Positions 18,193 through 61,432 of a DNA stretch of 64,000 bases are shown here, in pieces; positions within the stretch are counted from its first letter, which is position 1; every line of letters begins with the position of its first letter. Made by a program: the position numbers and the translations under genes. The notes beneath the pieces were generated by a model. The model searched no databases, had not been told where the DNA came from, and saw only the letters and a program-made list of their open reading frames with translations. Source of the DNA: Gottfriedia acidiceleris. GTDB taxonomy: Bacteria; Bacillota; Bacilli; Bacillales; Bacillaceae_G. The DNA lies in contig NZ_CP096034.1 in the NCBI RefSeq assembly GCF_023115465.1, positions 2,728,001 through 2,792,000 on the forward strand, in the 5' to 3' direction.

Positions 18193-20082
18193 TTATTTTT
18201 CTGGAGTACTGAAATTATCAGCTAATTTTGCTACATCAGGTATGCCAAGTCCTGTAGCTTGGTTATAAAGCGTACCTGGTGTACCAGAATAGAATAGATT
18301 ATCGTTTTGCGCGCCTGTTTTATTTAATGGTGTGAAAGGCGAAGAACTTTGTTGTGCAAAACGGTAAATTTGTGGATTCCAGAAACCTACTTGAGTATGA
18401 TCTGCACTATTAATTAACGCTGATAAACCATTCAATTGAGGTGAAACGAAACTAGTTCCGCCAAATACAGCATATCCTGAATTTGTACCTGGTTTACCTG
18501 GTGCACTTAAATAAACGTAATATCCTGTGTATGGATCTGCAGCCATTGATAAATCTGGAAGGTTACGTCCTGTACCTTGTCCTGAAATAACAGTTGGTTG
18601 TTTGTATGTTACATTTGATAAATCAGGTGAAATAGTAAACTCATCTACTGCAGAATACTGATTAACACCACTAATTCCTTTTTGGTAATCTGGCGTTTCA
18701 AAATGAGTACTGAAACCTCCACCACCACCATTAATTAAATTAGCATCTGGTAGTTTTCTAGCTTTGTAATATTCATTTAGATAATCCCAACCCCAAGCAC
18801 GTTCTTCCCCTACTTTGACATCGACGCCTGTTGAATTAGAATGGAATTGGAAAGGTAATGTCGTTCCGCCCGCTACAGTAATGTACGGACTTGCTGCTGG
18901 GAAATCAGCTGTAAGTTTAAATACTTTATCTGCACCTCTAGTTTCGTCATAAGCACCTGCATCACCAGCTGCGGCAAACATCGAAATCCCTTGTGCTGCT
19001 GCCTGCATAAATAATTGATTAAATGTATCTTCATACTCTGGGGCTTCCATTTGCTGCTGTACGTATGAATCTATACTCAATTCGCTTGATCCCCAACTTA
19101 CTGAAATTTGTTTAGCTATATTATCATTAATTGCATTTGAAAATGCATCGACAAATCCAGTATCCGAGTTCGGACCTACATACACATTAATATTTGCATC
19201 AGGAGCAATTGCACCCGCTTGCTGAACATCTAAAGTAGTTTCTTCATAGCCATCCCATCCAGAACCGCCATCAACCTCATTTACTTTAATACGATTAGGC
19301 TTTGTTTTAATTCCTACATTATCCCAGAATTTATAAGCATCGTCTGTATTAAATTCTGCTAATGTAACAATACCGATTGTTTCGCCAGCACCAGTTGCTC
19401 CCTTTTTATAAAGTGGATTAACATTGTAATGACTTTGTAAATCTTGTGGTGTTAAACTAAGGGGACCAGTTGGTACATCCTTTTTATCAATTATTGCTGG
19501 TTGTTTAACAGATCTTGATTCTAAATTAGAATAATTATTTAAACCTAAAATACATAAAATATTATCTGAAATTACTTTTGGTAAAGTTGGGTTCTTTTTA
19601 GTAGCATGAATGCTTTTACCTTTAAAACTAGCATATTTTAAATCGACACTTAAGGCTTTATTTAATTGAGCAACTGTTCCTGTTGCTGTAATCGTTAAGT
19701 TATTTGCATGAACATCAGTTTTAATACCATATGATTGTAGGTAAGACGTAACAGAATGGATATAAGCTGGATTAGGTGCATATTTAGCTTTAAATTCATC
19801 AACACTTAAATATTTACGATAATGCGGAGAATATGGTGTAACTGTTTCCTTTATATATTTTTCTAAATCATCTTTGTTTTGAAGTTTCAAAACAAAATCG
19901 ATGGATAGCGTAGTATTTGGATCCATGTCTCCAAAATAATTTGTTCCATCTAGCACAGCAGCCCCAGTACCTTGAGCTACTTCCTTATTTACTTGTGCGG
20001 CTACTTTAAATGTTGGTGCATTAACTAATAATAAAGAACTTGCTGCTGCTACAGTCATTAATGGTTTTTTCCAATTTTTCAA
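18193..20082 (-). CDS. Secreted S53 serine-carboxyl peptidase (sedolisin/kumamolisin)
   Basis: A 629-residue preproenzyme. A signal peptide (about 1-29) is followed by a pro-kumamolisin activation domain (about 40-185, with YSPHYRKYLSVDEF) and a catalytic domain (about 215-625). YEETTLDVQQ supplies the Glu and Asp of the SED triad near residue 280, SVSWGSSE is close to the oxyanion Asp region, and GGTSFVSPQ carries the nucleophile Ser near 543. The calcium loop ATGLGIPD is near the end. Sedolisins work at acid pH. The start is TTG after AAGGAGG. It is monocistronic and not part of the B. subtilis gene order, so it is an insertion. Confidence 0.92.
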   Translation of the reverse strand: MKNWKKPLMTVAAASSLLLVNAPTFKVAAQVNKEVAQGTGAAVLDGTNYFGDMDPNTTLSIDFVLKLQNKDDLEKYIKETVTPYSPHYRKYLSVDEFKAKYAPNPAYIHSVTSYLQSYGIKTDVHANNLTITATGTVAQLNKALSVDLKYASFKGKSIHATKKNPTLPKVISDNILCILGLNNYSNLESRSVKQPAIIDKKDVPTGPLSLTPQDLQSHYNVNPLYKKGATGAGETIGIVTLAEFNTDDAYKFWDNVGIKTKPNRIKVNEVDGGSGWDGYEETTLDVQQAGAIAPDANINVYVGPNSDTGFVDAFSNAINDNIAKQISVSWGSSELSIDSYVQQQMEAPEYEDTFNQLFMQAAAQGISMFAAAGDAGAYDETRGADKVFKLTADFPAASPYITVAGGTTLPFQFHSNSTGVDVKVGEERAWGWDYLNEYYKARKLPDANLINGGGGGFSTHFETPDYQKGISGVNQYSAVDEFTISPDLSNVTYKQPTVISGQGTGRNLPDLSMAADPYTGYYVYLSAPGKPGTNSGYAVFGGTSFVSPQLNGLSALINSADHTQVGFWNPQIYRFAQQSSSPFTPLNKTGAQNDNLFYSGTPGTLYNQATGLGIPDVAKLADNFSTPEK

Positions 20083-24863: not shown

Positions 24864-27155
24864 CTATTTCCAAACCTCAATCATTGCATCTGCATAAGCT
24901 TTTAAATTAGTATACGCTTTTACGGAAACCTTTTTCGAAGCATTTTCATTCTCTAAAAATCCTTTAAAATCATTAATATGTTTGATAACTTTATCCGAAG
25001 AACCTTTCATTTCAAATTGCTCTACAGACCTCAAATGTGCCTTTAATGCTTGCGCTGAACCTGCTTTGAAAGCTCCCGCATTTTCGAAGATGTCGATTAA
25101 AGAACTTACACCAGCTGCATTTAGATTGCTCAGTAAAAGATTGTTATCAGTAGCGCTTTGATTTGAGTCTGTTTCTGAAGTTGCCGTAAAGTTAATGTTT
25201 GCCGGAGCTGTCATACCCTTAGGAATTTTAACATACACCGGTACATCAATGCTTTTCCCCGGTTCTACTGCAACAATATTTTGATCAAGTTGAACCGTCC
25301 AATCTTCACCTACAGAAGCGTTAACTCGAATAAGATCCTTTGCATCGCCGGTATTTGTAACATTAAAATGGTAAACTGCCACTTTGCCCGCAACGGCCGG
25401 TTGTATTGTACCTGCACTTACATTTACGTCGCGTTTATAAGCACCTGATCCTTCCGTGTTACGAACTGCAACTTGATAATGAAGTACCCCGTCATTGCCT
25501 TTGTATTTGCCTAAAATGTAGAAGTGAAGATGATTGTAAGGATCGATGTACTCACTGACAACATCGTCTTTTCTAATAGAACCATCGAATTTCCCGCTTA
25601 CTAAGCTAGCTCCATTCCCTGCATGGAATAAAGAATCCAATGTTTGCCTTGGGTCACCTTTTGTAACCGACACTTTTGTTCCGTCAGGCTTTGTAAAGTC
25701 CTTCAATGCGATATCTTCAGGATGTGAATCAACTGGCCAGATAAACGGTGCAGTCTCCGCATTTTTCGTTTTGGAAATCAATACACCAGAATCGGCTGCA
25801 AAGGAATCCGCTCCAACTCGATCTACTACTTCAAGGGTGTAGTTATTGTACTTAGCGTTGTTTACGTTGCCGATCATATCGTTACGCCAGTCTCCGCTTA
25901 AGTAATTGCTTGGAGTTAAATCAGTCATACTGATATTGATCCCATGGAGTCCGTTTCTGCCGAATTTACTGCCAATTGGTACTTCGCGCGCGATAATATC
26001 CGCAAAAGCCGGACCAGACTCTTTTAATTCATCACGATTGAGTTGCAGTACTTCATCATTAGATAGAAATCCTTGTTTCATCTTGTTTCGAAGCGTATGT
26101 GGAGCTGGCAAGGAAGAACCAAGGGTAGCTGGAATCATCCAGCGAGTGTGCGTTCCACCTGGACCGTTAAATGATCCACGACTCATCGTTTCCCAATAAC
26201 CCGCATAGGTTCGAGGATCTAAAGCTGCATTATTATAGTTATCGCCCAGTCCTTTAAGATGACCAAATTCGTGAGCAAATGTCGACATGCCATCGCTTTC
26301 TCCTTGAATAGAAACACGAATCGATTTGCCGTTTAATGTTGCACTCGATGCAGCAGACCAAATAGATTTAGCTGCAAACCAAGAAGTCCAAGGTACATAG
26401 CGTGTTTTTGCCCAAGTTGGCATGCTCTCAAATCCTGTTAAATTTGGAGGACCAAATTCAGAAGGTACCGAGTTCTGATTCATAAACTTCATTTCACCCA
26501 GTTCTTGCCAAACAGTTGATTCATCATAGCCAGCATGTACAATAAACGCAAAGTCATAGTTTTTTCCAGAAGCTATAATATCGGCTGTTGCCGCATTTAT
26601 GCCGTCTTGGAAGAGGTTTCCGGTTTTATAATTACTTGGCAGAAAACCAGCATTAAAACTATCTAGCCCATACTGAAATTCATATTTATCTAAGCGGTAA
26701 GGACCGTAAGAATCAAGAGTTACGCCCCATTTTCCATATGAATTCTCTTTCCAAAAGCCATCGATTGTCTGATAATGATTTAACTCACTCGGTACATTTA
26801 AGTAATTCGTCCAAAACTCCCCAAGCTTTTCGCGGGGAACAGCATTGACTTGTGGATTACCGATGAGATCTTTACCTTTGGGCAAAGTCAAGATAAAATC
26901 CTGACCTGGAAAGTCAACTAAAATCAATGCCCCTTTAAGGTTTGTTTCCGGTTGAATACTCTTATCGGTACTCCAGTTAATACCCGGGACTGGTTTATAA
27001 TCATTCCAAGTCATATCCTCTGGATTCACCCATGACTGGGGATCCACTGGACCGGGCATTTGATTTAGCCCTGGTTCAGCAGCGAATGCGGCTGTTGAAT
27101 ACATGGAAATTATTAAAGTGGTCGATAATACAGCAATCTTAAATCTACGCTTCAA
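24864..27155 (-). CDS. Secreted M6 metalloprotease, immune inhibitor A-like
   Basis: A 763-residue secreted enzyme. The signal peptide ends AAFAAEP. The zinc motif AHEFGHLKGLGDNY (HExxHxxGxxD) is near residue 295, as in the M6 InhA family that degrades host and matrix proteins. An Ig-like NEW3/CARDB-type domain (about 585-665) precedes a C-terminal FIMAH-like helical domain (about 685-763). The start is TTG after GAGAGGAG. Base composition is less AT-rich than the neighbours, which suggests it was acquired. It interrupts the ccdA-yneF order, together with the ABC and S53 genes. Confidence 0.9.
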   Translation of the reverse strand: MKRRFKIAVLSTTLIISMYSTAAFAAEPGLNQMPGPVDPQSWVNPEDMTWNDYKPVPGINWSTDKSIQPETNLKGALILVDFPGQDFILTLPKGKDLIGNPQVNAVPREKLGEFWTNYLNVPSELNHYQTIDGFWKENSYGKWGVTLDSYGPYRLDKYEFQYGLDSFNAGFLPSNYKTGNLFQDGINAATADIIASGKNYDFAFIVHAGYDESTVWQELGEMKFMNQNSVPSEFGPPNLTGFESMPTWAKTRYVPWTSWFAAKSIWSAASSATLNGKSIRVSIQGESDGMSTFAHEFGHLKGLGDNYNNAALDPRTYAGYWETMSRGSFNGPGGTHTRWMIPATLGSSLPAPHTLRNKMKQGFLSNDEVLQLNRDELKESGPAFADIIAREVPIGSKFGRNGLHGINISMTDLTPSNYLSGDWRNDMIGNVNNAKYNNYTLEVVDRVGADSFAADSGVLISKTKNAETAPFIWPVDSHPEDIALKDFTKPDGTKVSVTKGDPRQTLDSLFHAGNGASLVSGKFDGSIRKDDVVSEYIDPYNHLHFYILGKYKGNDGVLHYQVAVRNTEGSGAYKRDVNVSAGTIQPAVAGKVAVYHFNVTNTGDAKDLIRVNASVGEDWTVQLDQNIVAVEPGKSIDVPVYVKIPKGMTAPANINFTATSETDSNQSATDNNLLLSNLNAAGVSSLIDIFENAGAFKAGSAQALKAHLRSVEQFEMKGSSDKVIKHINDFKGFLENENASKKVSVKAYTNLKAYADAMIEVWK

Positions 27156-46433: not shown

Positions 46434-47039
46434 TTATTTTTTTGGAAATTCTGCATTAGGATCTGTTTGCTTAGCTTGGACCTTAAAGCTGACTTTTAAG
46501 GCAACTCCTTGCATTTTGTTGTCTGCACTTTCTTTTAAACGTAATTTTAAATCGATCTCGATTTTGTCGTTTACTTTTAAGCGGTCTGAATCATCCTCTC
46601 CCTTACCCGGAAGCAGGTTATCTAATGTCGTCTGCAGATCATCAAGGTCGATCCAGTCAATGTCCGATACGGTCTCGCCGTTATACAGCATTGTCGGTTG
46701 AACTTCATAATTACTCAACAGCTTATCAAGCGATACGCCAGCTGGTGCATTGTCAATCGTAAAATGGACTTTACCACGGATAAACATATCATAGTCGCCT
46801 GTATTCTTAATCACGATCGGTGACATTTCGCTTATTTGGGAAGGCGCAAGCTTATCAGGCGAGAACGTCAATTGCTGCTCATTTTGTCCGTTATTTATCT
46901 CAAACGTTCCGTTTTGGACCGTTCCGCTAGCGGTCATTTGCGCGGTAAACCATGAATAGGTTCCGTATCCGGCCCCAACCACTAAAGAACCTGCCAATGC
47001 GGTTCCGATTAATGCTTTTTTTACTTTACTCATTTTCAT
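46434..47039 (-). CDS. TasA/camelysin-family matrix protein
   Basis: A 201-residue secreted protein of the TasA/CalY family. The signal region KALIGTALAGSLVVGAGYGT, followed by YSWFTAQMTASGTVQNGTF, has the SipW-type cleavage context (the helix, then S-x-F-x-x). The mature part contains the expected PIVIKNTGDYDMFIRGKV strand and a VALKVSFKVQA end. Relatives form biofilm fibres or act as surface metalloprotease-like camelysin. It is third in an operon behind a subtilase and sipW; its signal peptide is presumably cut by that SipW. The GC-richer composition is shared with the whole operon. Confidence 0.85.
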   Translation of the reverse strand: MKMSKVKKALIGTALAGSLVVGAGYGTYSWFTAQMTASGTVQNGTFEINNGQNEQQLTFSPDKLAPSQISEMSPIVIKNTGDYDMFIRGKVHFTIDNAPAGVSLDKLLSNYEVQPTMLYNGETVSDIDWIDLDDLQTTLDNLLPGKGEDDSDRLKVNDKIEIDLKLRLKESADNKMQGVALKVSFKVQAKQTDPNAEFPKK

Positions 47040-47064: not shown

Positions 47065-47607
47065 TTAATGCTGAACGTTCGTTTCATTTTGATTTCCAAA
47101 AATGCCGAGACGCTGAAAGATTTCGAGTATTACCACTAACAAGAGCGGCAGTACAATCAAAAGAAAAAAACCAAACCAGCTGGAGAAAAATTTGGAAATA
47201 TATCCAACACTCGGGATGGAGAAGGTTTCTACCCCCAAAATATCTTCCTTAGCCACGTAGCCATCATCTTCTAGATTGTTGGCGTCACCCTTGGTTACAA
47301 AGAGAGGTTTTCCGTCCTTCATTGTCATTCTCACAATTCGGTGTGTGATGAATGTGCCATCTGTTCTTTTATAGGTCACAACATCGTTTACTTGCAGTTC
47401 CCGATTCACCTTGATCAACACCAAATCGCCCGCTTGGAAGGTCGGCTTCATACTGTTAGACAGTACAATTAACGGCTTGTAACCGAGAACGCTTGGAACT
47501 TTTTCCACATTCCCCTTTGACTTTGCAAAGAAATAAATGACGGTCCCTGATCCGATGACGAGCATCATGACTAGGAGGAGAGAGAACCATTTCCATACTT
47601 TCTTCAT
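47065..47607 (-). CDS. sipW: Signal peptidase I, SipW (ER type)
   Basis: A 180-residue membrane signal peptidase with N- and C-terminal membrane helices. IVLSNSMKPTFQAGDLVL holds the catalytic Ser near residue 52 and FITHRIVRM has His in place of the bacterial Lys, marking the archaeal/ER-type SipW group. SipW processes TasA-type matrix proteins. It lies 25 bp upstream of the TasA-like gene and 70 bp downstream of the subtilase, so it is in the same transcription unit. In B. subtilis the first gene of the equivalent operon is tapA; here it is a protease. Confidence 0.93.
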   Translation of the reverse strand: MKKVWKWFSLLLVMMLVIGSGTVIYFFAKSKGNVEKVPSVLGYKPLIVLSNSMKPTFQAGDLVLIKVNRELQVNDVVTYKRTDGTFITHRIVRMTMKDGKPLFVTKGDANNLEDDGYVAKEDILGVETFSIPSVGYISKFFSSWFGFFLLIVLPLLLVVILEIFQRLGIFGNQNETNVQH

Positions 47608-47677: not shown

Positions 47678-50600
47678 TTAAAGTCCTAATTCTTTCTTAA
47701 TATCAGCAATTGTTTTTCCGTCGATTTTCTTAACAGGCGCCGGTGCATTATCTACGGTCGGGTTCTGCAGAGCGAAGTTCTCTTCGACATAGCCGAAATC
47801 TTTTTCATCAATGACACCGTCAAAGTTGATATCGGCACCACGGTTGTAATTTCCGTCGACTGCATGCGCCCCGAAGCTATCCTGAATGGCAATGGCATCC
47901 TTAATGTCGATAACGTTGTCTTTATTGACGTCTCCGGCAGTGGCATTCTCGATATCATTAGGGTAGCTTAACGTTTTCCAGTCACCGTAGTCCACCCCGT
48001 CTAGTGTTCGATATTCATTAAAGGTGCTATACATAGTGAAATGTCCTGGTAGATCTTGGATAAAGGTTAAATCGTCACGCGTGACTGGAAGTCCGTTAAT
48101 CGTAAACCCACCGAACTTGTTGTTAATAGTCCCTGCATACGTGTTTCCTTCACTGTCGACCACCGATACTTTCGCACCAAATTTCGTATAGTCACGCGAA
48201 ACAAGATTTCCTTTCGCATCCAGGAGTTCTTCTGGGCGGATCATCCCATAGACAGATGAGAAATTCGGCAAAATCCCAGTAGGAGGAACCCAACTGTAAG
48301 GTCTAGTCACCGTTCCGCTCACACTTGTAAATGTCGAGGATACCGCGTTCGTCATGCTCGATGAATCTGTATAATCGGGCGTATTTGGAATTTGAATCGT
48401 GACATCGACCATCGGTATGTTGCCATTTACGCCAGTTGTCGGGTCAAAATTAACCGTGACATTGTTGGTTACCTGGGTAGATGATGGCGATTTCGTGTAC
48501 GTAAGCGTTGCGCCGAGTGCTGCTGCTGCCGGATTTAAGGACACATTGGTTACGACTGTGTCGACGTTTCTTGTGATAAAGCGGTAGGCCGCTGTTTTTA
48601 AGTTCTTTACATGGTTGGCTGTTATCGTATAAGTGATGGTATCGCCTTTATGGGTGAAGACATAACTCCCGCGCATTGGCACATTCGGCTTCCCATATAC
48701 ATAGGTGTAGTTGTTCGGAACAATGAAGTAGCGTTTTCGGCCGAACGTGTTACCTGCATGGTCAATTCCTTCCAGTTCGAAATCAACTAAATTTCCATTT
48801 GGATCCGTACTGACTTGGCTTTGATAGTTTCCTTTTGAATCTAAGTTATAAATTCCGGTTGGACCTTGTAAGCTGTTATAGAAATAGTAAAGATAGTTTT
48901 TGGACTGGTCGACCTTTTGACCTGAAATCCCATTGTCATGGACAAAAGCGTTAAACGGAATTGATTTCGTTCCCGGCTCATACTCCACAAACGGATTGTT
49001 CGGCTGTTCTCCCTCTAGATGAGTATCGAATGCATCCGGCATCGTGTTGTCGATATTTATCTCGGCGGTTGGTGAAACAAACGCCTTTCCTGTATCATTG
49101 AATCCAATCATCTGTAACTTATAATGACCTTCCTTCGCATTGAAAAACTTGGCTGAGAGCGGGTTGTCGTCATCGCCAGTAAACGGATAGTACGTTCCGT
49201 CAAATCCAGTGCTATACTGGACGCCTTCATTGATCAGCATTCCGTCCCCGTAGTTTGTGACCCCGAGCTCATTACCCTCATTGTCAGTGATGATCTCGTA
49301 AACGTATCTCATATGCGACTTTAAGGTGAAGTGGCCATATACGGTTGGGTCAAAGACTAGCGTGCTAAGATGATTGCGTGCCGTTGTGGTGCTATCATAA
49401 TCAAAGAAGTAACTTTGGATTCCCTCTTCTACATAATGCACGGCAAATGGAACACGGTAAGTTTCCGTTTTATTGCCGCGGTTAGTGTACGTGATATATC
49501 CTTCGTAAATCCCTTTTTGAGCTTTTTTCGGAATATAAAGACTCGCTTTACCATTAAACTTGCTGTTTGCATTCATTTTAACAGTCGATGGCGTCATCAG
49601 TTTCACTCCATTTTTACTAGCATCGAGCGAACCTCTTACCCCGTTTTGGAAAGTAACTTTGACGTCAAACGTCTTTGTTTTGCTTCCGTTGTTTTGAATG
49701 GTATAACTGCGCGTACTTAACATGTCTTTTCCAGCAAAGGACAGATTTCCGAAGTTCATTGCACCTGTCTTTTCATTGATTTTCGATAGGTCTCCTTTTG
49801 ATGTTAACGTCGGCGTTGTTTCTTTCACTTGAAATTCCATTGTAGAGTGGATTGCTTTGTACGGATCAACGCGCCCTGCTCCTTGTTCAAAAACGCTATA
49901 TGTTCCATTTAACGGATCTGCTGTATTCATTAAAATCGTTTTAATATCTTCTGGATTAAGATTTGGCTTTGCCTGCAATAGAAGCGCTGCAATACCGGTT
50001 ACATTCGGCGTTGCCATGCTCGTTCCGCTCATCCGCTCATATGCGGTGCTGTAATCGGACGGATTGTCAGGTGTATGCACAAATCCTGGCACAGTCGAAA
50101 GTACATTTACGCCTGGTGCAGTCACTTCCGGCTTGATGTCATATGTCGTTCGAGATGGACCACGGGAGCTGAACGACGCTAAGTTATCTCCTGATGTCTT
50201 ATAAGAACTTAAATTGGCAAAAGAAAATTGCGTCATACCAGATGCGATTTTCGCCTTTAAAGCAAGGCCGTCTGAGTTGGTCAAGTTAAACGCTGGTATA
50301 AAATCGGTCCCTTCACCCAAATAAAATGGCATATACCCTTCTGTCGAGTTGTTGTTCCAAATCAGGATTGCCACTGCGCCTTTTAGTTTCGCCTGAAGGA
50401 TTTTATCGTTAATGCTTTGATTGTTTCCGCGTTGAACAAGAGCCACTTTTCCTGCTACATTTATGTTCAGGTAATCATTTACTGCTCCGTAATTTGGAAC
50501 CGCTACGATTGGTAGTGTCTTTCCTTGGAAACTTGCGAAATCGTCATTCCACCCTTTTGCTAGTCCGCGCATAGTAGAACTCACGCTGTCCAAATTCCCT

Positions 50601-51847
50601 TTCATAGTCGGGATCACCTGTGGCACATCACTTGCACCAACGGTCAAAGCAAGTTGCGCATTTCCTGGTGAACCCAAGGTATACATGCCGTCTCCTGTAT
50701 TTCCTGCTGCAATAACAGCCGTTACACCAGTTAGGACTGCGTTGTTGATTGCGATGCTTGTTGGATAAAACGGGTCATTGTAGTTTGCCCCGAGAGACAA
50801 GTTCATGACGTCTACACCGTCTGCGACCGCCTTGTCTATTCCTGCCATTACACTTTCGTCACTGCCACTTCCACCAGGACCCAGCACACGGTACACATAG
50901 AGACTTGCATCCGGTGCAATTCCGTTTGTTGCATAAGGGCTGTTGTTTTTCCCTTGACCGACAATTGTTCCAGAAACGTGTGTGCCGTGTTCGGTTTCGT
51001 AATCACTTGCTTTTAGAGTCGTCGTTGGATTCACTTTTTTATAATTTAGGTAATCCTGATAAGTGGTTTCCATTGGATTAGAATCGTTGTCCACGAAATC
51101 ATATCCACTTTTAAACGCCGCTTTGATGTCCGGGTGGTTATAATCTACGCCTGTGTCGATGACTGCTATTTTTACACCTTTTCCAGTGTAGCCTTCTTTA
51201 TGTAGTTTGTTGATATTAAGGAAGGCGTTCTCTGCTGCCATTCCTTGTCCCTGCGGATCGCTTGATGGCATCGCATCCTTGATTTTTACAGGTGGATCCG
51301 CCATGATTTTGTTGTTGCTGTATATCGCTTGAACGGCTTTTGATTTCATGATTTCCTGAATTTTGTTTGCCGGTAAAGTCAGCGCCACACCATTAAAGGC
51401 ATATTTATATTCGCGCTTCAATTTATAAGTGCCATCTTGTTTTTGTTTAAATACCTCTGCTAAATCCTGTTTGAATAGTTCATGGTCACCATTGGCCTTG
51501 CTTTTTGCTTGGGCACTCGTCAAATTTCTTCCATTTACTGCTGCCTCCAGCACTGCAGTCTTTTCCGGCTTATTTTTAAACTGGACGATGACAGAAACAT
51601 TTGCTGTACTTGCGAGTTTGACTTTTGGGTCTAAAAACAGACCGGATTGGTCATTAGCTGTTAACTTTTGCAGGGCTTGTCTTTGTGCTGCCGTCAACTT
51701 GGATAGGATCTGCACCGCTGTCGGATTAGTTTCAGCATGCACGGGAGTTGGCGAAGATGGATTGAAAGCAGATAGGCCGCTTGTAACCAAGCCTGCCCCA
51801 AGCGCTAAGGTTGTCGCTTTTTTTATTATTTTCTTTTTCTTGTCCAT
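47678..51847 (-). CDS. Giant secreted S8 subtilase with cohesin-like and dockerin domains
   Basis: A 1389-residue Vpr-type subtilase. Order: signal peptide (1-38), inhibitor I9 propeptide (about 82-185), catalytic domain with Asp231 (AVIDTGVDYNHP), His288 (EHGTHVSG), oxyanion Asn383 and Ser610 (SGTSMATP), and a PA insert (about 440-545). Fn3/Ig-like domains follow (about 690-1045), then a cohesin-like beta domain (about 1056-1180, GDTITYTITANHVKNL), an X-module-like domain (about 1195-1285) and a type I dockerin with two calcium loops, DVNKDNVIDIKDAI and DINFDGVIDEKDF (1304-1363). It heads the operon with sipW and a TasA-like gene. Its DNA is clearly less AT-rich than the backbone, suggesting acquisition. 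Confidence 0.93.
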   Translation of the reverse strand: MDKKKKIIKKATTLALGAGLVTSGLSAFNPSSPTPVHAETNPTAVQILSKLTAAQRQALQKLTANDQSGLFLDPKVKLASTANVSVIVQFKNKPEKTAVLEAAVNGRNLTSAQAKSKANGDHELFKQDLAEVFKQKQDGTYKLKREYKYAFNGVALTLPANKIQEIMKSKAVQAIYSNNKIMADPPVKIKDAMPSSDPQGQGMAAENAFLNINKLHKEGYTGKGVKIAVIDTGVDYNHPDIKAAFKSGYDFVDNDSNPMETTYQDYLNYKKVNPTTTLKASDYETEHGTHVSGTIVGQGKNNSPYATNGIAPDASLYVYRVLGPGGSGSDESVMAGIDKAVADGVDVMNLSLGANYNDPFYPTSIAINNAVLTGVTAVIAAGNTGDGMYTLGSPGNAQLALTVGASDVPQVIPTMKGNLDSVSSTMRGLAKGWNDDFASFQGKTLPIVAVPNYGAVNDYLNINVAGKVALVQRGNNQSINDKILQAKLKGAVAILIWNNNSTEGYMPFYLGEGTDFIPAFNLTNSDGLALKAKIASGMTQFSFANLSSYKTSGDNLASFSSRGPSRTTYDIKPEVTAPGVNVLSTVPGFVHTPDNPSDYSTAYERMSGTSMATPNVTGIAALLLQAKPNLNPEDIKTILMNTADPLNGTYSVFEQGAGRVDPYKAIHSTMEFQVKETTPTLTSKGDLSKINEKTGAMNFGNLSFAGKDMLSTRSYTIQNNGSKTKTFDVKVTFQNGVRGSLDASKNGVKLMTPSTVKMNANSKFNGKASLYIPKKAQKGIYEGYITYTNRGNKTETYRVPFAVHYVEEGIQSYFFDYDSTTTARNHLSTLVFDPTVYGHFTLKSHMRYVYEIITDNEGNELGVTNYGDGMLINEGVQYSTGFDGTYYPFTGDDDNPLSAKFFNAKEGHYKLQMIGFNDTGKAFVSPTAEINIDNTMPDAFDTHLEGEQPNNPFVEYEPGTKSIPFNAFVHDNGISGQKVDQSKNYLYYFYNSLQGPTGIYNLDSKGNYQSQVSTDPNGNLVDFELEGIDHAGNTFGRKRYFIVPNNYTYVYGKPNVPMRGSYVFTHKGDTITYTITANHVKNLKTAAYRFITRNVDTVVTNVSLNPAAAALGATLTYTKSPSSTQVTNNVTVNFDPTTGVNGNIPMVDVTIQIPNTPDYTDSSSMTNAVSSTFTSVSGTVTRPYSWVPPTGILPNFSSVYGMIRPEELLDAKGNLVSRDYTKFGAKVSVVDSEGNTYAGTINNKFGGFTINGLPVTRDDLTFIQDLPGHFTMYSTFNEYRTLDGVDYGDWKTLSYPNDIENATAGDVNKDNVIDIKDAIAIQDSFGAHAVDGNYNRGADINFDGVIDEKDFGYVEENFALQNPTVDNAPAPVKKIDGKTIADIKKELGL

Positions 51848-52057
51848 TTTTTTACGTCCTCTCTATTTCCTAACTATGTATAAATTGATATTTCTTTAAT
51901 ATGAAAATTTCATGTTAGTTACTTAATTTCACATTTAAATCCTCTGAATTCTTTTTCTACGTTAGGATTTTCCGTGCAAATTAATAGTTTGATAACATAG
52001 AATATTCAGAAATATCAACCTGTACATAGTATAGTCCTTTGCTGATGTTCTTGTATA

Positions 52058-52068
52058 TTGGGGAAATT
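52058..52068 (-). promoter_or_regulatory. C4-5 motif, 210 bp upstream of subtilase 1
   Basis: On the sense strand of the downstream gene the sequence is AATTTCCCCAATATA. A matching ATTTCCCCCAATATA stands about 210 bp upstream of the paralogous subtilase. Confidence 0.4.
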
Positions 52069-52204
52069 CTATCTCTTTTTTATTATATTTTTAAACAAGA
52101 TTCTACAAGAACAGAACATTTTAATGTTGTATTTTATCTAATGCGGTAGAACGAATAGGGATTATGTTGTAATTTATCACGGAATTCAGAAAAATTTTTC
52201 GCTG

Positions 52205-52220
52205 AATTTGGGGGATTTTT
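52205..52220 (-). promoter_or_regulatory. C5 motif, 360 bp upstream of subtilase 1
   Basis: The sense strand reads AAATCCCCCAAATTC, matching TATTCCCCCGAATTC found about 360 bp upstream of the other subtilase. Confidence 0.4.
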
Positions 52221-52329
52221 GATAATCGTTACACTTGATAAACTATGTGCTCGTTCTTTTCTTGATCGCTCATATTCCGATTATGTTTGCTAGATGTGTT
52301 TTTCCTACACAACTTGTACTTAAGCTTTG

Positions 52330-52640
52330 TAGAAGGAGACCAACAATATCGGTAAAGAAAAATCTACATAGAACCAGTCTATAGACAAATTAAGCACTAT
52401 CGAGGATTTAAGAGTTTTGAATTAAGTAGCCTATCTCCAAAAACTACGCTTTGGATTTGTGTTGGCCATAATCTAAAAAATGGTAATTCAATTACAAGAA
52501 ACAGATGAAAATAAGGAAAAGTTGAGAAGATTTCATTCGGTTAGAAAACAAAGAATTCCTAAAAAAACTTCAAAAATTATAGTGAAATGAAAAACTGACT
52601 CAAAAAAGTCTTTTTTCAACGACCTTTTAAGTCAGCTTCT
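52330..52640 (+). mobile_element. IS1182-type transposase C-terminal remnant
   Basis: IEPVYRQIKHYRGFKSFEL and the later GHNLKNG can be read in one plus-strand frame, matching the end of IS1182-family transposases (IEPVFGxIKxNxGFRRFxLRG, AHNxKK). The frame soon ends in stops. A long inverted repeat, CTGACTCAAAAAAGTC against GACCTTTTAAGTCAG (52594-52635), follows, as often found at the element's end. The front of the element is missing. Confidence 0.6.
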
Positions 52641-52689
52641 AACTATATTTCAGAAGAATATTCTTCTCATCATAACTAAATACTGTACT

Positions 52690-53225
52690 TATTCTCAATT
52701 TTCGTCTCTAAATGAACTCCTCTACCCCGCAACTGATGAATATAAGGCATTACCTTCCCCACACACTACACATCAAGTTTCATATTTTCATAGAAATGTT
52801 TGAAATAAAGCTCAATATTTTTTAATAGTCACCTTCTTATAGAACGATGTATGGAAATCCTCCATTTACCCTGCTGACAATAACTGATCCCTTACTTTTT
52901 CCCATGCCTTATCAGTGACTTTATATTCCTTACTTTGTCGTTGGAATAAATACAATCTTCCCGCATGACGAGTTCTTTAGGTAAGTAGTTTGGAATAAAT
53001 GAACTACCGGACTCAAACTCTCGTACTTTAAACATCTTTTCTCGTCCGTTGCCAGGTTTAACGCTTTATCTTTCATTTCTTTTTTTGGATTATTATATTG
53101 CTCTTCAACATCTTTAAACATTCTTAGTCCTAAATAATACGGGTTAATGCTTGTTTTCGATGGCTGAACTAGGTCTGTGTTAAATCTACATTTATTCCTT
53201 TATACAGCTCTTCATAATTCAATAC
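52690..53225 (-). pseudogene. spoVR: Decayed spoVR gene
   Basis: On the minus strand, in broken frames, one reads [53 protein letters not shown], then RLYLFQ, VTDKAWEKVRDQL and traces of the C terminus. These follow the order of SpoVR (VQPSxTxxNPYxxGxxMFxDIEERYNNP... YLFQ...W..VRDQL). The N-terminal half is missing and several stops and shifts interrupt the remainder. SpoVR is a cortex-related sporulation protein; a functional copy may exist elsewhere. Confidence 0.65.
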
Positions 53226-53387
53226 TTGTAACAATCTCTTCCAAAATAATATTTGTTTTTGCTTTCAGCCGTCTAAAAATACTTCTTAAGTCATAGCTCA
53301 CCATTTAAAATATGAAAAACTAAGTCGAATTACTCAATTTCATTTCTTATACGTAATCTCAATTTCATTTTCCTACGTTAATACCAG

Positions 53388-53451
53388 ATATTCCCCCGAA
53401 TTCGATGTCGAATAATCCGCAAAAAAAATACAGTGAATTCGGGGGAATTTT
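53388..53451 (+). repeat. Inverted pair of C5/G5 motifs upstream of subtilase 2
   Basis: TTCCCCCGAATTC (53391-53403) and its exact reverse complement GAATTCGGGGGAA (53435-53447) are 31 bp apart. The first matches the motif upstream of the paralogous subtilase. A possible regulator site or stem-loop. Confidence 0.55.
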
Positions 53452-53534
53452 TATTTCTTTCATTTTTTTCTACAAAATGTAACAGAATCTAAGTGTTTCG
53501 GCATGAAATTTTAAGAAAATACAAACCATTTTTT

Positions 53535-53556
53535 AATATATTTCCCCCAATATATT
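53535..53556 (+). promoter_or_regulatory. C5 motif, 210 bp upstream of subtilase 2
   Basis: AATATATTTCCCCCAATATATT: two AATATATT direct repeats flank a C5 core. The counterpart before subtilase 1 is at 52058-52068. Confidence 0.4.
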
Positions 53557-53760
53557 TTAAAGCCATGTCTAAATATAATATTAATTGTTAGATGATTCGG
53601 AATATTTAGTTTTAAATAATTTGAAACTCTTACGACAGTTATCTTCATCTTTCAAAGTTCATTCCGTGTATGAAATGTGAAGGATCGTAACTCGGACGAA
53701 AACAACACATTTTTACAAATATATTAATCATTAAATATTGTATGAAAAGGGAGAGGTTTT

Positions 53761-56700
53761 ATGGGGAATAGTAGAAACAAAAAAATTATGAAAGTCATGT
53801 CGGTCGGGGCATTATCAACAAGTATTCTAGCAACATGTTTTATACCCGGACAGACATCTTTTGCAGTGACAGATTCCAGTACTACTATTAAGGATATTGA
53901 CAGTTACATAAAAAATATATCCAATGCTGATCGCGAAAGAATTCATAGTATGCAAGAGACAGACTATACAGGACTTATGATTTCACCAGATGTGAATTTA
54001 AATGAAGATACTCCATTAAATGTTATTGTTCAATTTAAACAAGCTCCTTCTGAGATTGATTACAAGGAAAAACAATCAAATGGAATTACGGCAACTCTTG
54101 ATGATTCTCTGAAACTAGTAGATGAATCTCATAAAAAATTTAAGGATCAGCTAAATGGTAATTCCAAATTAAATAATTCCGCTGATATTAAACGAGAATA
54201 CAAGTATGTTTTCAATGGAGTTTCAATGACTTTACCTGCTAATCAGGTAAAAGAACTATTAAACTTAGATTCTGTAAAAGCGGTATACGAAGATAAAGAA
54301 GTTTCAGTAGAACCGCTCGTAGAACAAAACGGAGAGCCTGCAAACAATTCTTCCATAAATTTAAATAATATGGAACAAATTGGTGCCAAAAAACTACATA
54401 ACGAAGGGATTACTGGAAAGGGTGTAAAGGTAGGAGTCATCGATACTGGAATCGATTATACTCACCCAGACTTAAAAGATGTTTATAAAGGTGGATATGA
54501 CTTTGTAAACAACGATTCAGATCCAATGGAAACAAGCTATGATGATTGGAAAAAATCTGGCCAACCAGAATTTAATCAGCTTTCGGGTGAACCATACTAC
54601 ACAGCTCATGGGACACACGTATCGGGTATCATTGCTGGTACTGGAAAAAATCATTCAAATTTCGCCGTAACAGGTGTTGCTCCACAAGTTGAACTTTATG
54701 GTTATAAGGTTCTTGGACCGTATGGGTCTGGTGGAGATAGTAACATTATTGCAGGGATCGATAAAGCGGTAGAAGATAAAATGGATGTTATCAACTTGTC
54801 TTTAGGAGCAGGTATAACCAACCCTCTAGACCCCATGTCAGTTGCAATTAATAATGCAACGTTAGCTGGAACAGTTTGTGTTATTGCTGCAGGTAATGGT
54901 GGAACTGGTGGAAAATATACAATTGGTAGCCCTGCTTCTTCAGCACTTGGTATAACAGTTGGTGCGAACAGCTCTCCAATCACAATTCAAACTAATAACG
55001 CAGTTGCAAATTCAGTAAATGAGACATTTAAATTAGACAATATGAGAATGATGGCTACTGATTATTCTGATATCAATACGTTAAAAGGATCTACTCTTCC
55101 AATTGTTTTTGTTGGAAAAGGAAACACATATGATTTCACTGGTAAAAATGTGAAGGATAAGATTGTACTGATGGAACGTGGGGATTTAACATTAAATGTA
55201 AAAATTAAAAATGCAAAGGCAAATGGAGCCAAAGCTGTCATAATGTTCAATAATATTCCAGGTGAGACTTATATTCCATATTATTTTGGAAACAATTTTG
55301 ATTTTATCCCGACCTTTAGCATTCCAAATGATCAAGGTATAAAACTGATCAATATGTTAAATAAAGGTGCCGTTAACCTCACTATGAATGATTTTGGAAC
55401 ATTTGAATCAGAAGGTGATAAATTAGCTGACTTTAGTTCGAGAGGTCCAGCAAGAAGATATTATGATATTAAACCTGAAATCACTGCGCCAGGTGTTGCC
55501 GTATTTTCTTCAATTCCTGCTTACTACAACGGAGCAGCTCATAAGGATGATTATGAGCATGCATATGCAAGATTTGACGGTACTTCAATGGCTGCGCCAC
55601 ATGTTGCAGGCTCTGCTGCCTTGATTTTACAAGCCCATCCTGACTATACACCTCAGCAAGTTAAGTTAGCTCTAATGAATACAGCGGATGAATTAAACGG
55701 GTCTTATAGTGTATTCGAAAAGGGTTCAGGAAGAATAGATACGGACGAAGCTGTCCACACTTCTATTCAAATTGGGGTTAAGGACGAAGTAGCAACAATG
55801 GAAGATGGTCAAAAAGTTATGATTTCAGAAACATCCGGTGACTTAAGCTATGGAGCAATCGTAACGACTGATAAGGACTATAAAGACAAAAAGTCAATTG
55901 AGATTACAAACAACTCAAATAAAAACAAAGTATTTGACGTTAAAGTTAAATTCAATAAGATTCCAGGTTATGATCAAGATGCAGAAAAAAATGGCATTTC
56001 TTTGGACATGCCTTCTGAAGTCACTGCTAAAGTAAATGGCACTTCAAAAATTATGCCTAAGCTACATGTTCCAGCAACTGCTGAGTTAGGTTTATATGAA
56101 GGAACTATTTATTTTACAAATAAAGATGACAGTAATGAAGTTTATCAAATCCCATTTGGATTAAATAAAATGGAGCAAGGAATACAAGATGTATTTTTAA
56201 CAACGAAAGCCTTTAATACAAGAAGAGATTTACCTTTTGCAATAAATGGAGGAACTGGAATTGCTTTCTCTCTGAAGAGCCGCATGGAGACTGTTGATAT
56301 CGTATTGAAAAATGCAGATACTGGTCAAGAATTGGGGATTATTGATTCTTTCGATGATGGGTTTAATGAAGGGAAGACTTTTGGTTTGGATGCTGGATTT
56401 AATGGACTTTACTTTCCATTCACTGGAAATCCTGACCAGCCAGTTCACATTACTAAATCACTTGCTTCACCAGGCAGATACGAGATTGAAATTATTGGTA
56501 CAAATGAAGATGGAAAAGTCTTTAAAAAGTCCAAACAAATCATTATTGATAATACACTACCTACGTTAAAAACAAATGTACCAGGTGGAGTATATGAAGT
56601 AGATGATACTGGATTAAAAATCAGTGGGAATATTACTGATTCTTCCATTGACCTATGGAATAAAAACGGCGAAAATATTGATCAATCTAATAATAAAGTA

Positions 56701-57918
56701 AATGTTACCTCTGCTACAAACCCATCTGGTAACGTACCGTTAGTTGTTGACAGTAAAGGAAACTTTGAATACACAAGAATGATTCAAGCTGGAAGAGATT
56801 TTTCAACAATGACTCTACAATCTCAGGATATTGCTACGAACGGCGTTCAAAATCATCCTGATTTTACTTACACATTGATCAGAAAAGGCCTTCCATACAT
56901 GAAGTTAACGGCTGACAAAAGTAATGCAAAATATGGTGAAACAGTTAAAGTAACATTAAACGAACAAAATATTAAAAATTTCATGGGTGGCGAGTTTACT
57001 ATCGCTTATCCTTATCAACTATTTGATTTCCAAAGCGCTGAGTTAAATAATGAATATGTAAATGCTGCGAAGTCCATGGGACTTACAGCCAAACTAACAG
57101 CACAAGATCTTAAAACTGATACATCAAACAACTGGGTTAAATTAGTGACAAATTTAGATGGAACTACCCCTTCATCTGGAATCAATGCAAATATGCCTAT
57201 TGCCACACTTACTTTCAAAGTGAAGGATGCTCCAAGTGTCTATACAAAGTGGGTTCAACAATTTGGTTTTCAAACTGCAAAGGCAAATATTTTAGGACAA
57301 CCACAAACGACAATTACCAACAAGTTTGGTAGAGGATTAAATATTATTCCAACCTATTCAATTCTTGAAGGTGGATTCTTGCCAGACGGCTTTATCCCAA
57401 GCAATCAAATTTGGTTAGATCCTAAAAAAGACTATTCAAAAGTTGGAGCAGAAGTGTATGTCATTGGTGGCACAGATGGAAAACGTTATGATGCAACAAT
57501 CAATAGTGCTGCAAGATTCTCAGTAAAGAATCTGCCATTACTAGACCAATCCTATGAAATCGTTATTAAAATACCTGGCCACTTCGAAAGACATGTAAAA
57601 GTTGATGAAATGGTCGATACCTATGATGGAATGGCAGCTGGAAAATTAAAGTATTTTTACTACGCTACTATGCGAGCTGGAGATGTTAACCATGATAATG
57701 TCATCGATATACTTGATGCAGTCTACATTACTAACAAGCTTAATACAAATGACCGAGAAGCTGATATCAACTTTGATGGAGTCGTAAATGCGAAAGACCT
57801 TGATTACGTTAAGAAAAACTATTTAATGCAAAACCCTGACGCTCCTTCTGGACATATTCAGCCAGTAACAAAATATAAAGGGAAAACATTAGAAGATTTT
57901 ACTGCACCATTAGGTTAA
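53761..57918 (+). CDS. Second giant S8 subtilase with cohesin-like and dockerin domains
   Basis: A 1385-residue paralogue of the protein at 47678-51847 with the same plan: signal peptide (1-35), I9 propeptide (about 84-182), catalytic Asp228 (GVIDTGIDYTHP), His283 (AHGTHVSG), oxyanion Asn379 and Ser609 (DGTSMAAPHV), PA insert (about 445-545) and Fn3/Ig-like region. A clear cohesin-like domain (about 1045-1170) runs from GETVKVTLNEQNIKNFMGGE to ANMPIATLTFKVKD. An X-like module (about 1195-1290) and a dockerin (DVNHDNVIDILDAV, DINFDGVVNAKDLDYV; 1305-1358) end the protein. The codon use is more AT-rich than the paralogue, so the two copies are not a recent duplication. It is monocistronic and starts after GGGAGAGG. 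Confidence 0.93.
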   Translation: MGNSRNKKIMKVMSVGALSTSILATCFIPGQTSFAVTDSSTTIKDIDSYIKNISNADRERIHSMQETDYTGLMISPDVNLNEDTPLNVIVQFKQAPSEIDYKEKQSNGITATLDDSLKLVDESHKKFKDQLNGNSKLNNSADIKREYKYVFNGVSMTLPANQVKELLNLDSVKAVYEDKEVSVEPLVEQNGEPANNSSINLNNMEQIGAKKLHNEGITGKGVKVGVIDTGIDYTHPDLKDVYKGGYDFVNNDSDPMETSYDDWKKSGQPEFNQLSGEPYYTAHGTHVSGIIAGTGKNHSNFAVTGVAPQVELYGYKVLGPYGSGGDSNIIAGIDKAVEDKMDVINLSLGAGITNPLDPMSVAINNATLAGTVCVIAAGNGGTGGKYTIGSPASSALGITVGANSSPITIQTNNAVANSVNETFKLDNMRMMATDYSDINTLKGSTLPIVFVGKGNTYDFTGKNVKDKIVLMERGDLTLNVKIKNAKANGAKAVIMFNNIPGETYIPYYFGNNFDFIPTFSIPNDQGIKLINMLNKGAVNLTMNDFGTFESEGDKLADFSSRGPARRYYDIKPEITAPGVAVFSSIPAYYNGAAHKDDYEHAYARFDGTSMAAPHVAGSAALILQAHPDYTPQQVKLALMNTADELNGSYSVFEKGSGRIDTDEAVHTSIQIGVKDEVATMEDGQKVMISETSGDLSYGAIVTTDKDYKDKKSIEITNNSNKNKVFDVKVKFNKIPGYDQDAEKNGISLDMPSEVTAKVNGTSKIMPKLHVPATAELGLYEGTIYFTNKDDSNEVYQIPFGLNKMEQGIQDVFLTTKAFNTRRDLPFAINGGTGIAFSLKSRMETVDIVLKNADTGQELGIIDSFDDGFNEGKTFGLDAGFNGLYFPFTGNPDQPVHITKSLASPGRYEIEIIGTNEDGKVFKKSKQIIIDNTLPTLKTNVPGGVYEVDDTGLKISGNITDSSIDLWNKNGENIDQSNNKVNVTSATNPSGNVPLVVDSKGNFEYTRMIQAGRDFSTMTLQSQDIATNGVQNHPDFTYTLIRKGLPYMKLTADKSNAKYGETVKVTLNEQNIKNFMGGEFTIAYPYQLFDFQSAELNNEYVNAAKSMGLTAKLTAQDLKTDTSNNWVKLVTNLDGTTPSSGINANMPIATLTFKVKDAPSVYTKWVQQFGFQTAKANILGQPQTTITNKFGRGLNIIPTYSILEGGFLPDGFIPSNQIWLDPKKDYSKVGAEVYVIGGTDGKRYDATINSAARFSVKNLPLLDQSYEIVIKIPGHFERHVKVDEMVDTYDGMAAGKLKYFYYATMRAGDVNHDNVIDILDAVYITNKLNTNDREADINFDGVVNAKDLDYVKKNYLMQNPDAPSGHIQPVTKYKGKTLEDFTAPLG

Positions 57919-58309: not shown

Positions 58310-58978
58310 CTATGGTAAGTGATATGATTTAATATGATTCAACCTCAATAAAGTGACCTCTCCACTTGCTACAATTAATTCAATGACACCATCTTCTACA
58401 CTCTTGAGTATTCCAATTTTCATTGGATCAAGCCCCCCATCAAATACGACAAATTTTCCTTCTTCTTTTTTTAATTGTGTATCAAACAAGCGTGAAAATG
58501 ACAAATTTGCATTTTCAGGTAATAGATTGATTTTAGAGTTATAGGGGTTGGCATTATGGCTATATGGTGTTAACCATTTTAAATGTGATAAAGGGATATA
58601 CAACATTTTAAATACTGGTGAATAAAACACGATATAGTCACTTAATACGTTTATAATATTTCCATGAAATGTGATATTACCTGTAACATATATCTCTGCA
58701 AAGATCCCTTTTGCATTTGATAATATTTTACGATAAGAGATTGTTCCAATATCTTCTGCTATTGACGGTCCAGTCGGTTTATCTATTTTGTCTTTATAAT
58801 TGCTGCTTAGACTAACCCTGTGAACGTGAAGCCATGGAATATAATAGTATTTTTTTCCGTTGTACAATACTAGGACGTCTCTACCATAATCTGTTAGTAT
58901 TCCTTCAAAATAATTACCACCTGATAATTGTACATAAATTTTTTCTCCAACTAATGATTGTACCTCACTCACTTGCAT
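58310..58978 (-). CDS. Triple-repeat DUF2642-like protein A
   Basis: A 222-residue soluble protein made of three similar beta-barrel-like units: 5-52 (GEKIYVQLSGGNYFEGILTD then YYYIPWLHVHRV), 88-140 (AEIYVTGNITFHGNIINVLS then LYIPLSHLKWL) and 170-220 (GKFVVFDGG then VTLLRLNHIKSYHLP). Each unit ends in a (Y/L)IPLxHIK-like strand as in DUF2642 spore-coat-type proteins of Bacillus. A GTG six bases downstream of the ATG has better spacing to GAGGAG and may be the true start. A paralogue lies at 60767-61432, across an ArsB-like gene. Function is unknown. Confidence 0.65.
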   Translation of the reverse strand: MQVSEVQSLVGEKIYVQLSGGNYFEGILTDYGRDVLVLYNGKKYYYIPWLHVHRVSLSSNYKDKIDKPTGPSIAEDIGTISYRKILSNAKGIFAEIYVTGNITFHGNIINVLSDYIVFYSPVFKMLYIPLSHLKWLTPYSHNANPYNSKINLLPENANLSFSRLFDTQLKKEEGKFVVFDGGLDPMKIGILKSVEDGVIELIVASGEVTLLRLNHIKSYHLP

Positions 58979-60766: not shown

Positions 60767-61432
60767 TTAAGGCAAATGAACAGACTTAATATGGTTAAGT
60801 CTTAAATAAACTACCTCCCCACTTGCGACCGATAATTCAATTACACTATTTTCAATCGTATTCAGCAAACCAATTTTCATCGGATCATTTCCACCATCAA
60901 AAATAACTAGTTTTCCTTCTTCTTTTTTTAATTGGGATTCAAAAGAGCGCACAGGGGAGATTTTCGATGGATTTATTGGAAAGTTTGCATTATCAATTGA
61001 GTAAGGTGTTACATTTTGATGATATGGTGAGAGCCACTTTAGATGAGATAATGAGATATACATCATTTTAAATACTGGTGAATAAAAAACGATATAGTCA
61101 CTTAAAACACTTGTTATATAGCCATGAAAGGTCAAATTACCCGTAACATATATTTCCGAGAAAATCCCTCTCGCATTTGTTAATACTTTTCTGTAGGAAA
61201 TTGTTTCTATTTCATTTGCAATTGAAGGCTCGTTAGGAGTATCTATCTTATCTTTAATATGCTGACATAAATGTACTCGATGAACATGAATCCAAGGGAT
61301 ATAATAATATTTTTGACCATTATATAATACAAGTATGTCTTGTCCTGCATCAGTTAAAATACCTTCAAAAGCAATATCTCCAGATAGAAGTACAAATACT
61401 TGTCGATTTAGTAATGAATCTATATAACTCAA
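60767..61432 (-). CDS. Triple-repeat DUF2642-like protein B
   Basis: A 221-residue paralogue of the protein at 58310-58978, well over half identical by eye and with the same three-unit plan: YYYIPWIHVHRV, MYISLSHLKWLSPY and the ending VYLRLNHIKSVHLP. It starts with TTG after GGGGGAG. It has its own terminator and lies 400 bp upstream of the ArsB-like gene. The two copies around a transporter suggest duplication and perhaps a linked role, but no function is known. Confidence 0.65.
   Translation of the reverse strand: MSYIDSLLNRQVFVLLSGDIAFEGILTDAGQDILVLYNGQKYYYIPWIHVHRVHLCQHIKDKIDTPNEPSIANEIETISYRKVLTNARGIFSEIYVTGNLTFHGYITSVLSDYIVFYSPVFKMMYISLSHLKWLSPYHQNVTPYSIDNANFPINPSKISPVRSFESQLKKEEGKLVIFDGGNDPMKIGLLNTIENSVIELSVASGEVVYLRLNHIKSVHLP

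Follow-up and report, generated by a model that had tools for sequence, protein, structure and literature searches.

Gene Pair and Catalytic Core

A stretch of 64,000 nucleotides from the genome of Gottfriedia acidiceleris (assembly GCF_023115465.1, contig NZ_CP096034.1, positions 2,728,001 to 2,792,000; hereafter the window) contains two complete, divergently oriented open reading frames (ORFs), termed P1 and P2, which encode large subtilases with a C-terminal cassette of a cohesin-like domain, an X-like module, a dockerin and a conserved tail (Table 1). Their starts are separated by 1.9 kb, in which only short ORFs are found. The analysis described here concerns the identity of this cassette and the co-variation of its dockerin with the last helix of the protein.

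A preliminary description of the window had proposed two giant subtilases at this position. Both are confirmed, and the scale is larger than anticipated, as the pair belongs to a family of 23 members in the same genome. Peptidase_S8, PA, Inhibitor_I9 and Dockerin_1 were matched above the Pfam gathering score in each protein. The S8 domain with a PA insert, the I9 propeptide and the intact triad identify P1 and P2 as Vpr-type subtilases, and for both the top match among PDB sequences was the Vpr fibril protease (8jmw; E 4.7e-98 for P1 and 3.3e-87 for P2). The catalytic Asp, His and Ser residues are kept in all 23 aligned paralogues of the genome, including P1 and P2. A recent duplication was ruled out as the origin of the pair, as the two proteins share only 38% identity and the nearest paralogue of P2 (79%) is located elsewhere in the genome.

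Identity of the C-Terminal Cassette

The cohesin domain of P2 is recognized by Pfam (PF00963; residues 1047-1177, 33.6 bits against a gathering score of 24.1, E 5.3e-8), while no match to this family was obtained for P1 at E values up to 1. Full-length paralogue alignment identified the corresponding P1 domain as homologous to the P2 cohesin, and a family cohesin profile of 60 rows matched it with an E value of 6.3e-36. Because P1 is itself one of these rows, the independent evidence for its cohesin is structural. The X module has no Pfam assignment; a sub-threshold CarboxypepD_reg match (E 0.16) was seen in P1 and is not in the list for P2. The type I dockerin (PF00404) scored 24.3 bits in P1 and 33.3 bits in P2, against a gathering score of 22.9, and both calcium loops are intact in the two proteins, as the preliminary description had stated.

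AlphaFold2 models of the C-termini, built with an alignment of 91 cassettes, placed the three modules together with high confidence (predicted local distance difference test score 95.1 and predicted template modeling score, pTM, 0.88 for P1; 93.9 and 0.86 for P2), and the high pTM suggests that the modules form a rigid unit. In Foldseek searches, the first four ranks for each model were occupied by CohI9-X-DocII chains of the Clostridium thermocellum scaffoldin CipA, with E values of 1.4e-19 to 1.6e-17 for P2 and 1.8e-15 to 2.3e-14 for P1. The P1 model was matched at ranks 5-8 by the Bacillus cereus pilin BcpA, more weakly and as stacks of beta-sandwiches. Over the 332-349 columns aligned with CipA, identity is 14-18%, and the hinge differs (template modeling score, TM, 0.34-0.44). 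A sequence profile of the 91 cassettes likewise had 3kcp_A as its best match, along a single collinear stretch (E 2.7e-8). The cohesin jelly-roll fold was found in both proteins (P2 with 1aoh_A, TMt 0.79; P1 with 2xdh, TMt 0.70), as was the type II X-dockerin dyad, represented by chain 5m0y_B (TMt 0.69, root mean square deviation, rmsd, 3.6 over 169 columns for P2; TMt 0.72, rmsd 4.3 over 170 columns for P1).

Plain Ig/Fn3 folds, named in the preliminary description as the outcome that would speak against cohesins, were ruled out by these matches for both models. The proposed order of cohesin-like, X-like and dockerin modules was borne out by the models, the Foldseek ranks and the collinear profile match, and the C-terminus of P1 and P2 shares homology with the terminal part of the scaffoldin CipA. 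CipA CohI9-X-DocII (PDB 3kcp, 4fl4) contains the same three modules in the same order and is the best structural and profile match. In contrast to CipA, the cassette of P1 and P2 is carried by a protease rather than a scaffoldin, the linker between cohesin and X module is short (three residues between strands in the P2 model), an extra tail helix is present, and the angle between the modules differs (rmsd 11.3-13.4).

Co-variation of the Dockerin With the C-Terminal Tail

The preliminary description let the chain end with the dockerin. Instead, 23 residues follow, ending in a conserved helix with the consensus TLxxILxxLG. For the coupling analysis, 321 matches were reduced to 268 unique rows with less than 25% gaps; the source records overlap, and identical rows were removed. 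The tail helix is present in 257 of the 268 rows; among the remaining 11 are long proteins that end differently, as well as four long proteins of the own genome without a dockerin match. When a profile of dockerin and tail was compared with PDB sequences, the best stretch ended by position 60 of 81 in 38 of 38 cases. Solved dockerins therefore seem to be devoid of the tail.

Mean-field coupling analysis of the 268 cassettes (effective number of sequences 153 at 80% identity; in the cassette numbering used below, P2 residues equal the cassette position +1028) identified dockerin position 323 and tail position 353 as the top coupled pair, at 12.5 standard deviations (sd). Of the 200 strongest couplings, 30 are dockerin-tail pairs, where about five would be expected by area. 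The same pair ranked first when the X-dockerin-tail part was analyzed alone (12.0 sd), and in 20 of 20 random halves 323-353 held ranks 1-2 and 319-353 ranks 1-6. Of the 118 rows with a lysine at 353, 116 carry an acidic residue at 323; none of the 28 rows with a basic residue at 323 has K353. P1 exhibits the pair E1355-K1384, and P2 has K1351-T1381. On a tree calculated from cohesin and X module only, the traits at 323 and 353 change 21 and 19 times, respectively, but jointly only 24 times. Among 12 independent pairs, an average of 8.1 agree, 0.4 oppose and 3.5 show no difference (median p 0.008, range 0.004-0.039).

Positions 10, 11, 17, 18 and 22 of the dockerin repeats have been described, in the relevant part of one study, as putative cohesin-recognition residues (PMC3413522). 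Position 323 corresponds to position 17 of the second repeat, and positions 289 and 290, coupled to 351 and 341, correspond to positions 10 and 11 of the first. Taken together, the recognition positions and the tail show co-diversification (partial r 0.304, with none of 300 permutations as high), also when the leading pair 323/353 is left out (0.271, 0/300); the recognition positions co-diversify to a lower degree with the X module (0.124, 0/300). Couplings between X module and dockerin fall on calcium loop 1 (242-283, 248-283 and 247-286).

Conservation and Coupling of the Cohesin Docking Sheet

With strands 8-3-6-5 taken as the docking sheet, this sheet was the least conserved of the sets compared (1.24 bits, against 1.76 for the other cohesin sheet, p 0.0002), while the dockerin recognition positions reached 2.10 bits, other dockerin positions 2.82 and the calcium ligands 4.19. 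No co-diversification was detected between the docking sheet and the recognition positions of the same chain (partial r -0.033, 279/300 permutations as high). As controls, the other cohesin sheet gave 0.001 (147/300) against the recognition positions, the docking sheet -0.019 (252/300) against the tail, and the other cohesin sheet 0.034 (14/300) against the tail, a weak, unexplained signal. Co-variation thus lends no support to cognate pairing of cohesin and dockerin within a chain, for which 22 of the top 200 couplings compare with about 30 expected by area, and the two sheets did not differ in their coupling to the dockerin (p 0.48).

Family Size and Distribution

In the 4.69 Mb genome, 26 Dockerin_1 matches were identified. 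Twenty-three of these belong to P2 and 22 tblastn relatives that span the region from protease to dockerin at 38-79% identity, two of them being longer (1,762 and 1,853 residues). Two further matches lie in S8 proteins with a length of roughly 2,700 residues, and the last one in a frame of 132 residues (G000:C1:3428953-3429357), which comprises only the end of a cassette, has one TAA within the match and is probably a gene remnant. The cohesin profile detected 29 copies, none of them outside S8 ORFs: each of these 23 proteins accounts for one, and the other six are located in larger S8 proteins (2,674-2,864 residues). A genome-wide search with the Pfam Cohesin model at E values up to 1 added one match (E 0.507), which contains a stop codon and was taken as chance. 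The 132-residue fragment is the only one of the 26 dockerins outside S8 ORFs. A canonical cellulosome was ruled out: neither a scaffoldin-like protein with repeated cohesins nor a free cohesin was found in the genome with Pfam and the family profile, and 29 of 29 cohesins and 25 of 26 dockerins reside in S8 ORFs. Overall, Peptidase_S8 matches occur at 49 places (47 ORFs, two of them listed twice), including several proteins of 2,400-2,900 residues. Of the modules, the cohesin diverges most between the paralogues of the genome (mean identity 21.8%), whereas the dockerin (55.8%, range 33.9-86.2% among the 23 paralogues) is conserved like the protease core (54.7%).

Dockerin matches were found in 13 of 13 genomes of the genus (2-62 matches each), in 15 of 19 genomes of the family and in 69 of 397 genomes drawn evenly from the order; in this last draw up to 15 candidates were scored per genome, so that the counts of dockerin-rich genomes are lower bounds. 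Among the matches listed, cassettes are carried by Gottfriedia, Neobacillus, Peribacillus, Rossellomorea, Fictibacillus, Sporosarcina, Paenibacillus and others, and the closest relative is found in G. luciferensis (80% in the cassette). At least three Streptomyces loci (L105, L107, L109) carry the same cohesin-X-dockerin cassette in ORFs of 1376-1610 residues. The genus mate with 62 dockerin matches in total shows nine of them within 43 kb (L158-L160; G012:C1:2378000-2428500). In plasmids, a tblastn search with P1 returned a single record with a place of 80% or higher coverage; plasmid CP053689.1 (250,451 bp; labeled Arthrobacter citreus, probably in error) contains 13 places, and the protease family is also plasmid-borne.

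In the draw from the order, 33 genomes possess exactly one dockerin, and 22 of these, hand-picked and partly chosen for a visible frame of ~1,370 residues, were examined for cohesins; some are records that already supply cassettes of the profile (e.g., G156, Fictibacillus nanhaiensis L073). In 15 of the 22 there is exactly one cohesin-like match, located in the same ORF (1327-1401 residues), a proportion that is no rate given the hand-picking. The other seven depart from this pattern: five show no profile cohesin, and two show a weak match in the same ORF (483 and 1475 residues). As the lone cohesin of these 15 one-cassette genomes lies in the dockerin ORF, any contact should take place within or between copies of one protein, unless a partner escapes both profiles. 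In the G. acidiceleris genome, the confinement of cohesins and dockerins to S8 ORFs, one fragment aside, suggests that any pairing should be intra-family. Within the reach of the searches, self-pairing would be the only cohesin-dockerin pairing on offer in these genomes. In the 483-residue ORF (G161:C3:899547-900092), the weak cohesin lies close before the dockerin and leaves no space for an X module, and dockerin ORFs of 450-482 residues without a cohesin match occur in G329, G305 and G093.

Neighboring Genes and Other Features of the Window

Downstream of P1, 70 bp away and in the same orientation, lies a gene for a sipW-like signal peptidase; after a further gap of 25 bp comes a TasA/camelysin-like gene of the Peptidase_M73 family, also on this strand. 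On the minus strand, one terminator-like site is located within sipW (47485-47473) and another behind the last gene (46266-46251), with none between the genes, but such sites occur at a frequency near chance. The order protease-sipW-tasA recurs in five of 76 fetched loci (L056, L063, L077, L079 and L081), which are records of Paucisalibacillus, Sporosarcina, Neobacillus, Virgibacillus and Peribacillus, and partial variants occur in two more of the 76 loci and in two of the 15 one-cassette genomes. Vpr of B. subtilis is reported to process TapA (cited in PMC10657474, in the part concerned). The recurrence of these neighbors together with TapA processing makes a role near matrix fibers a reasonable lead, for P1 only and not for the whole family.

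No RNA elements were detected at Rfam gathering scores between positions 44000 and 60000, and scans for promoters and terminators around the gene pair remained close to the level of chance. Elsewhere in the window, secreted-type proteases are encoded at 24864-27155 (Peptidase_M6 (InhA) and FIMAH matches) and 18193-20082 (pro-kumamolisin and S8 matches), and genes for two small proteins at 58310-58978 (DUF6897 and DUF2642) and 60767-61432 (DUF6897) flank an ArsB/CitMHS-type transporter gene.

Table 1. Features of the P1/P2 locus (positions in the window).
Feature	Position	Strand	Basis
TasA/camelysin-like gene (Peptidase_M73 family)	46434..47039	-	
sipW-like signal peptidase gene	47065..47607	-	
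P1 (1389 aa), S8 protease of the Vpr type ending in cohesin-X-dockerin-tail	47678..51847	-	ORF, Pfam, PDB match
P1 C-terminal tail; K1384 co-varies with dockerin E1355	47681..47746	-	Model, coupling analysis
P1 dockerin, two calcium loops with 6-residue insert between them	47786..47938	-	Pfam, alignment
P1 X-like module, approximate boundaries	47942..48250	-	Pfam (sub-threshold), model, Foldseek
P1 cohesin-like domain	48251..48727	-	Below Pfam threshold; family profile (P1 is a row), model, Foldseek
P1 Peptidase_S8 domain with PA insert, residues 222-658, triad conserved	49874..51184	-	Pfam, alignment
P2 (1385 aa), S8 protease of the Vpr type ending in cohesin-X-dockerin-tail	53761..57918	+	ORF, Pfam, PDB match
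P2 Peptidase_S8 domain, residues 219-657; triad D228, H283, S609	54415..55731	+	Pfam, alignment
P2 cohesin domain	56872..57369	+	Pfam, profile, model, Foldseek
P2 X-like module with PGHF motif, approximate boundaries	57370..57669	+	Model, Foldseek
P2 dockerin, two calcium loops	57676..57819	+	Pfam, alignment
P2 C-terminal tail (residues 1363-1385), containing the helix; T1381 occupies the site coupled to K1351 of the dockerin	57847..57915	+	Model, coupling

Discussion

The preliminary description knew of no comparable system in a Bacillus, a statement that has to be qualified in two respects. Vpr of B. amyloliquefaciens, a protease of the same type as P1 and P2 but lacking their cassette modules, forms active extracellular fibrils and, together with its B. 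subtilis counterpart, provides a precedent for an S8 enzyme that polymerizes outside the cell (8jmw; PMC10657474). As far as the relevant part of that report goes, these fibrils assemble via Vpr's own assembly domains and not via cohesin or dockerin modules, and the word “dockerin” is absent from its main text. In addition, a Sub_N-Subt-PA-Dockerin architecture was tabulated for one protein (NP_691157.1) as early as 2008 (PMC2605481), and an S8 domain appears in the figure key for cohesin-containing proteins of Acetivibrio mesophilus (PMC11557425). In the pertinent parts of the two surveys, no cohesin is listed for the tabulated subtilase, and neither a tail nor an expansion is mentioned. A further parallel is offered by the ScaA dockerin of Ruminococcus flavefaciens, in which an intramolecular clasp connects an N-terminal Trp to a C-terminal Pro (Slutzki 2013, as cited in the part of PMC5864761 concerned). 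There, too, the termini of the dockerin stabilize the dockerin itself, but in the family of P1 and P2 a whole helix is coupled to helices 1 and 3.

Our favored explanation, to which we give about an even chance of being correct, is that P1 and P2 are secreted, catalytically intact Vpr-type subtilases in which the cohesin-like domain has diversified and the X-dockerin end is self-capped and locked by calcium. Calcium loop 1 of the dockerin would pack on the X module, and the last helix (TLxxILxxLG) would run along dockerin helices 1 and 3, overlapping the positions used for cohesin binding in other dockerins; we infer this geometry from the co-variation and the confident helix prediction. The resting unit would most likely be a calcium-locked cap that stabilizes the C-terminus, and the cohesin-like domain may have diversified between paralogues in the manner of binders for different targets or matrix components. 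Any assembly by cohesin and dockerin would require that the tail is displaced or removed. No dockerin of this self-capped type came up in searches of open-access papers, and it would, to our knowledge, be the first one known.

Several observations weigh against this explanation. Co-variation cannot separate contacts in cis from those in trans. By our own reckoning on a helical wheel, the contacts of the tail are centered beside the canonical face, and the cover may be partial. As a group, the ten recognition positions exceed the remaining dockerin positions in coupling to the tail by a modest margin only (p 0.016), and most other single couplings were less stable in half samples, 316-350 being unstable (median rank 1828). 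Eleven rows carry an acidic residue at 323 without K353, five of them from the 15 one-cassette genomes, and in these 15 genomes the acid-lysine pair at 323/353 is present in only one row. The absent signal between cohesin and dockerin is also weak evidence, because the cohesin columns align poorly and contacts within the cohesin were themselves weakly recovered, making up 26 of the 200 strongest couplings where the area would predict about 33.

The preliminary description had instead proposed a self-assembled protease polymer, in which a cohesin engages the dockerin on a different molecule, either head to tail or by cross-linking of paralogues. Its reading of the modules holds, and self-pairing is the only option in view: besides the S8 proteins and one fragment, no carriers of cohesins or dockerins were found in the genome, and the sole cohesin of 15 of the 22 hand-picked one-dockerin relatives lies in the dockerin ORF. 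The 23 dockerins also resemble each other. Proteases of the Vpr type are moreover capable of forming fibrils, according to the part of the report concerned (PMC10657474). The proposal is weakened by the cohesin being the most divergent module, its docking sheet showing lower conservation than the other sheet and no co-diversification with the recognition positions, and by the coupling of the tail to those positions. In CipA, the type I cohesin and the type II dockerin of the same chain are not known to be partners. The coupling of the tail to the recognition positions, which the docking sheet lacks, favors the self-capped unit over a constitutive polymer, which we regard as unlikely. A simple head-to-tail chain is doubtful, as the plug looks partly covered by the last helix of the protein, and cohesin-dockerin pairing could yield a polymer only upon displacement of the tail, or if the tail's cover is smaller than it appears. 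An assembly controlled by a latch, in which the helix plugs the dockerin and its proteolytic removal or its displacement lets cohesins and dockerins link identical or paralogous proteases into a mixed extracellular network, is a rather remote prospect, and at that same low likelihood, taken jointly, the number of enzyme types in such a network might reach dozens, perhaps along TasA-like fibers.

The X-dockerin might also dock on a third partner, such as the cell wall, the S-layer or a TasA-like fiber, with the cohesin-like domain serving as a spacer or substrate binder. This would resemble CipA, whose X-DocII anchors the scaffoldin to the cell surface, and would agree with a dockerin as conserved as the protease core and with the sipW and TasA-like genes after P1, which recur in five of 76 fetched loci of other genera and, as order variants, in two of the 15 one-cassette genomes, both of one genus. 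We nevertheless judge such anchoring improbable, since Pfam at E values up to 1 and the family profile revealed no second cohesin family, and own-genome matches to sipW and the TasA-like gene occur beside P1 only, the other paralogues having been searched with about 1.5 kb of flanking sequence. Finally, the modules could be an inherited beta-sandwich and EF-hand without a binding role, retained for folding only. The variable recognition surfaces of both modules would fit this idea, but the near-invariant calcium ligands and the retention of the whole cassette in many genera and through large expansions make it very unlikely.

If the self-capped dockerin proves true, it would provide a switchable coupling for protein engineering. 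The 23 copies in this genome and the 62 dockerin matches in a genus mate raise the question why so many similar dockerins are carried by divergent proteases. Dockerins are usually seen as plugs seeking sockets; in this family, if the favored explanation is true, the cover of the plug and the socket would reside on the same proteases.

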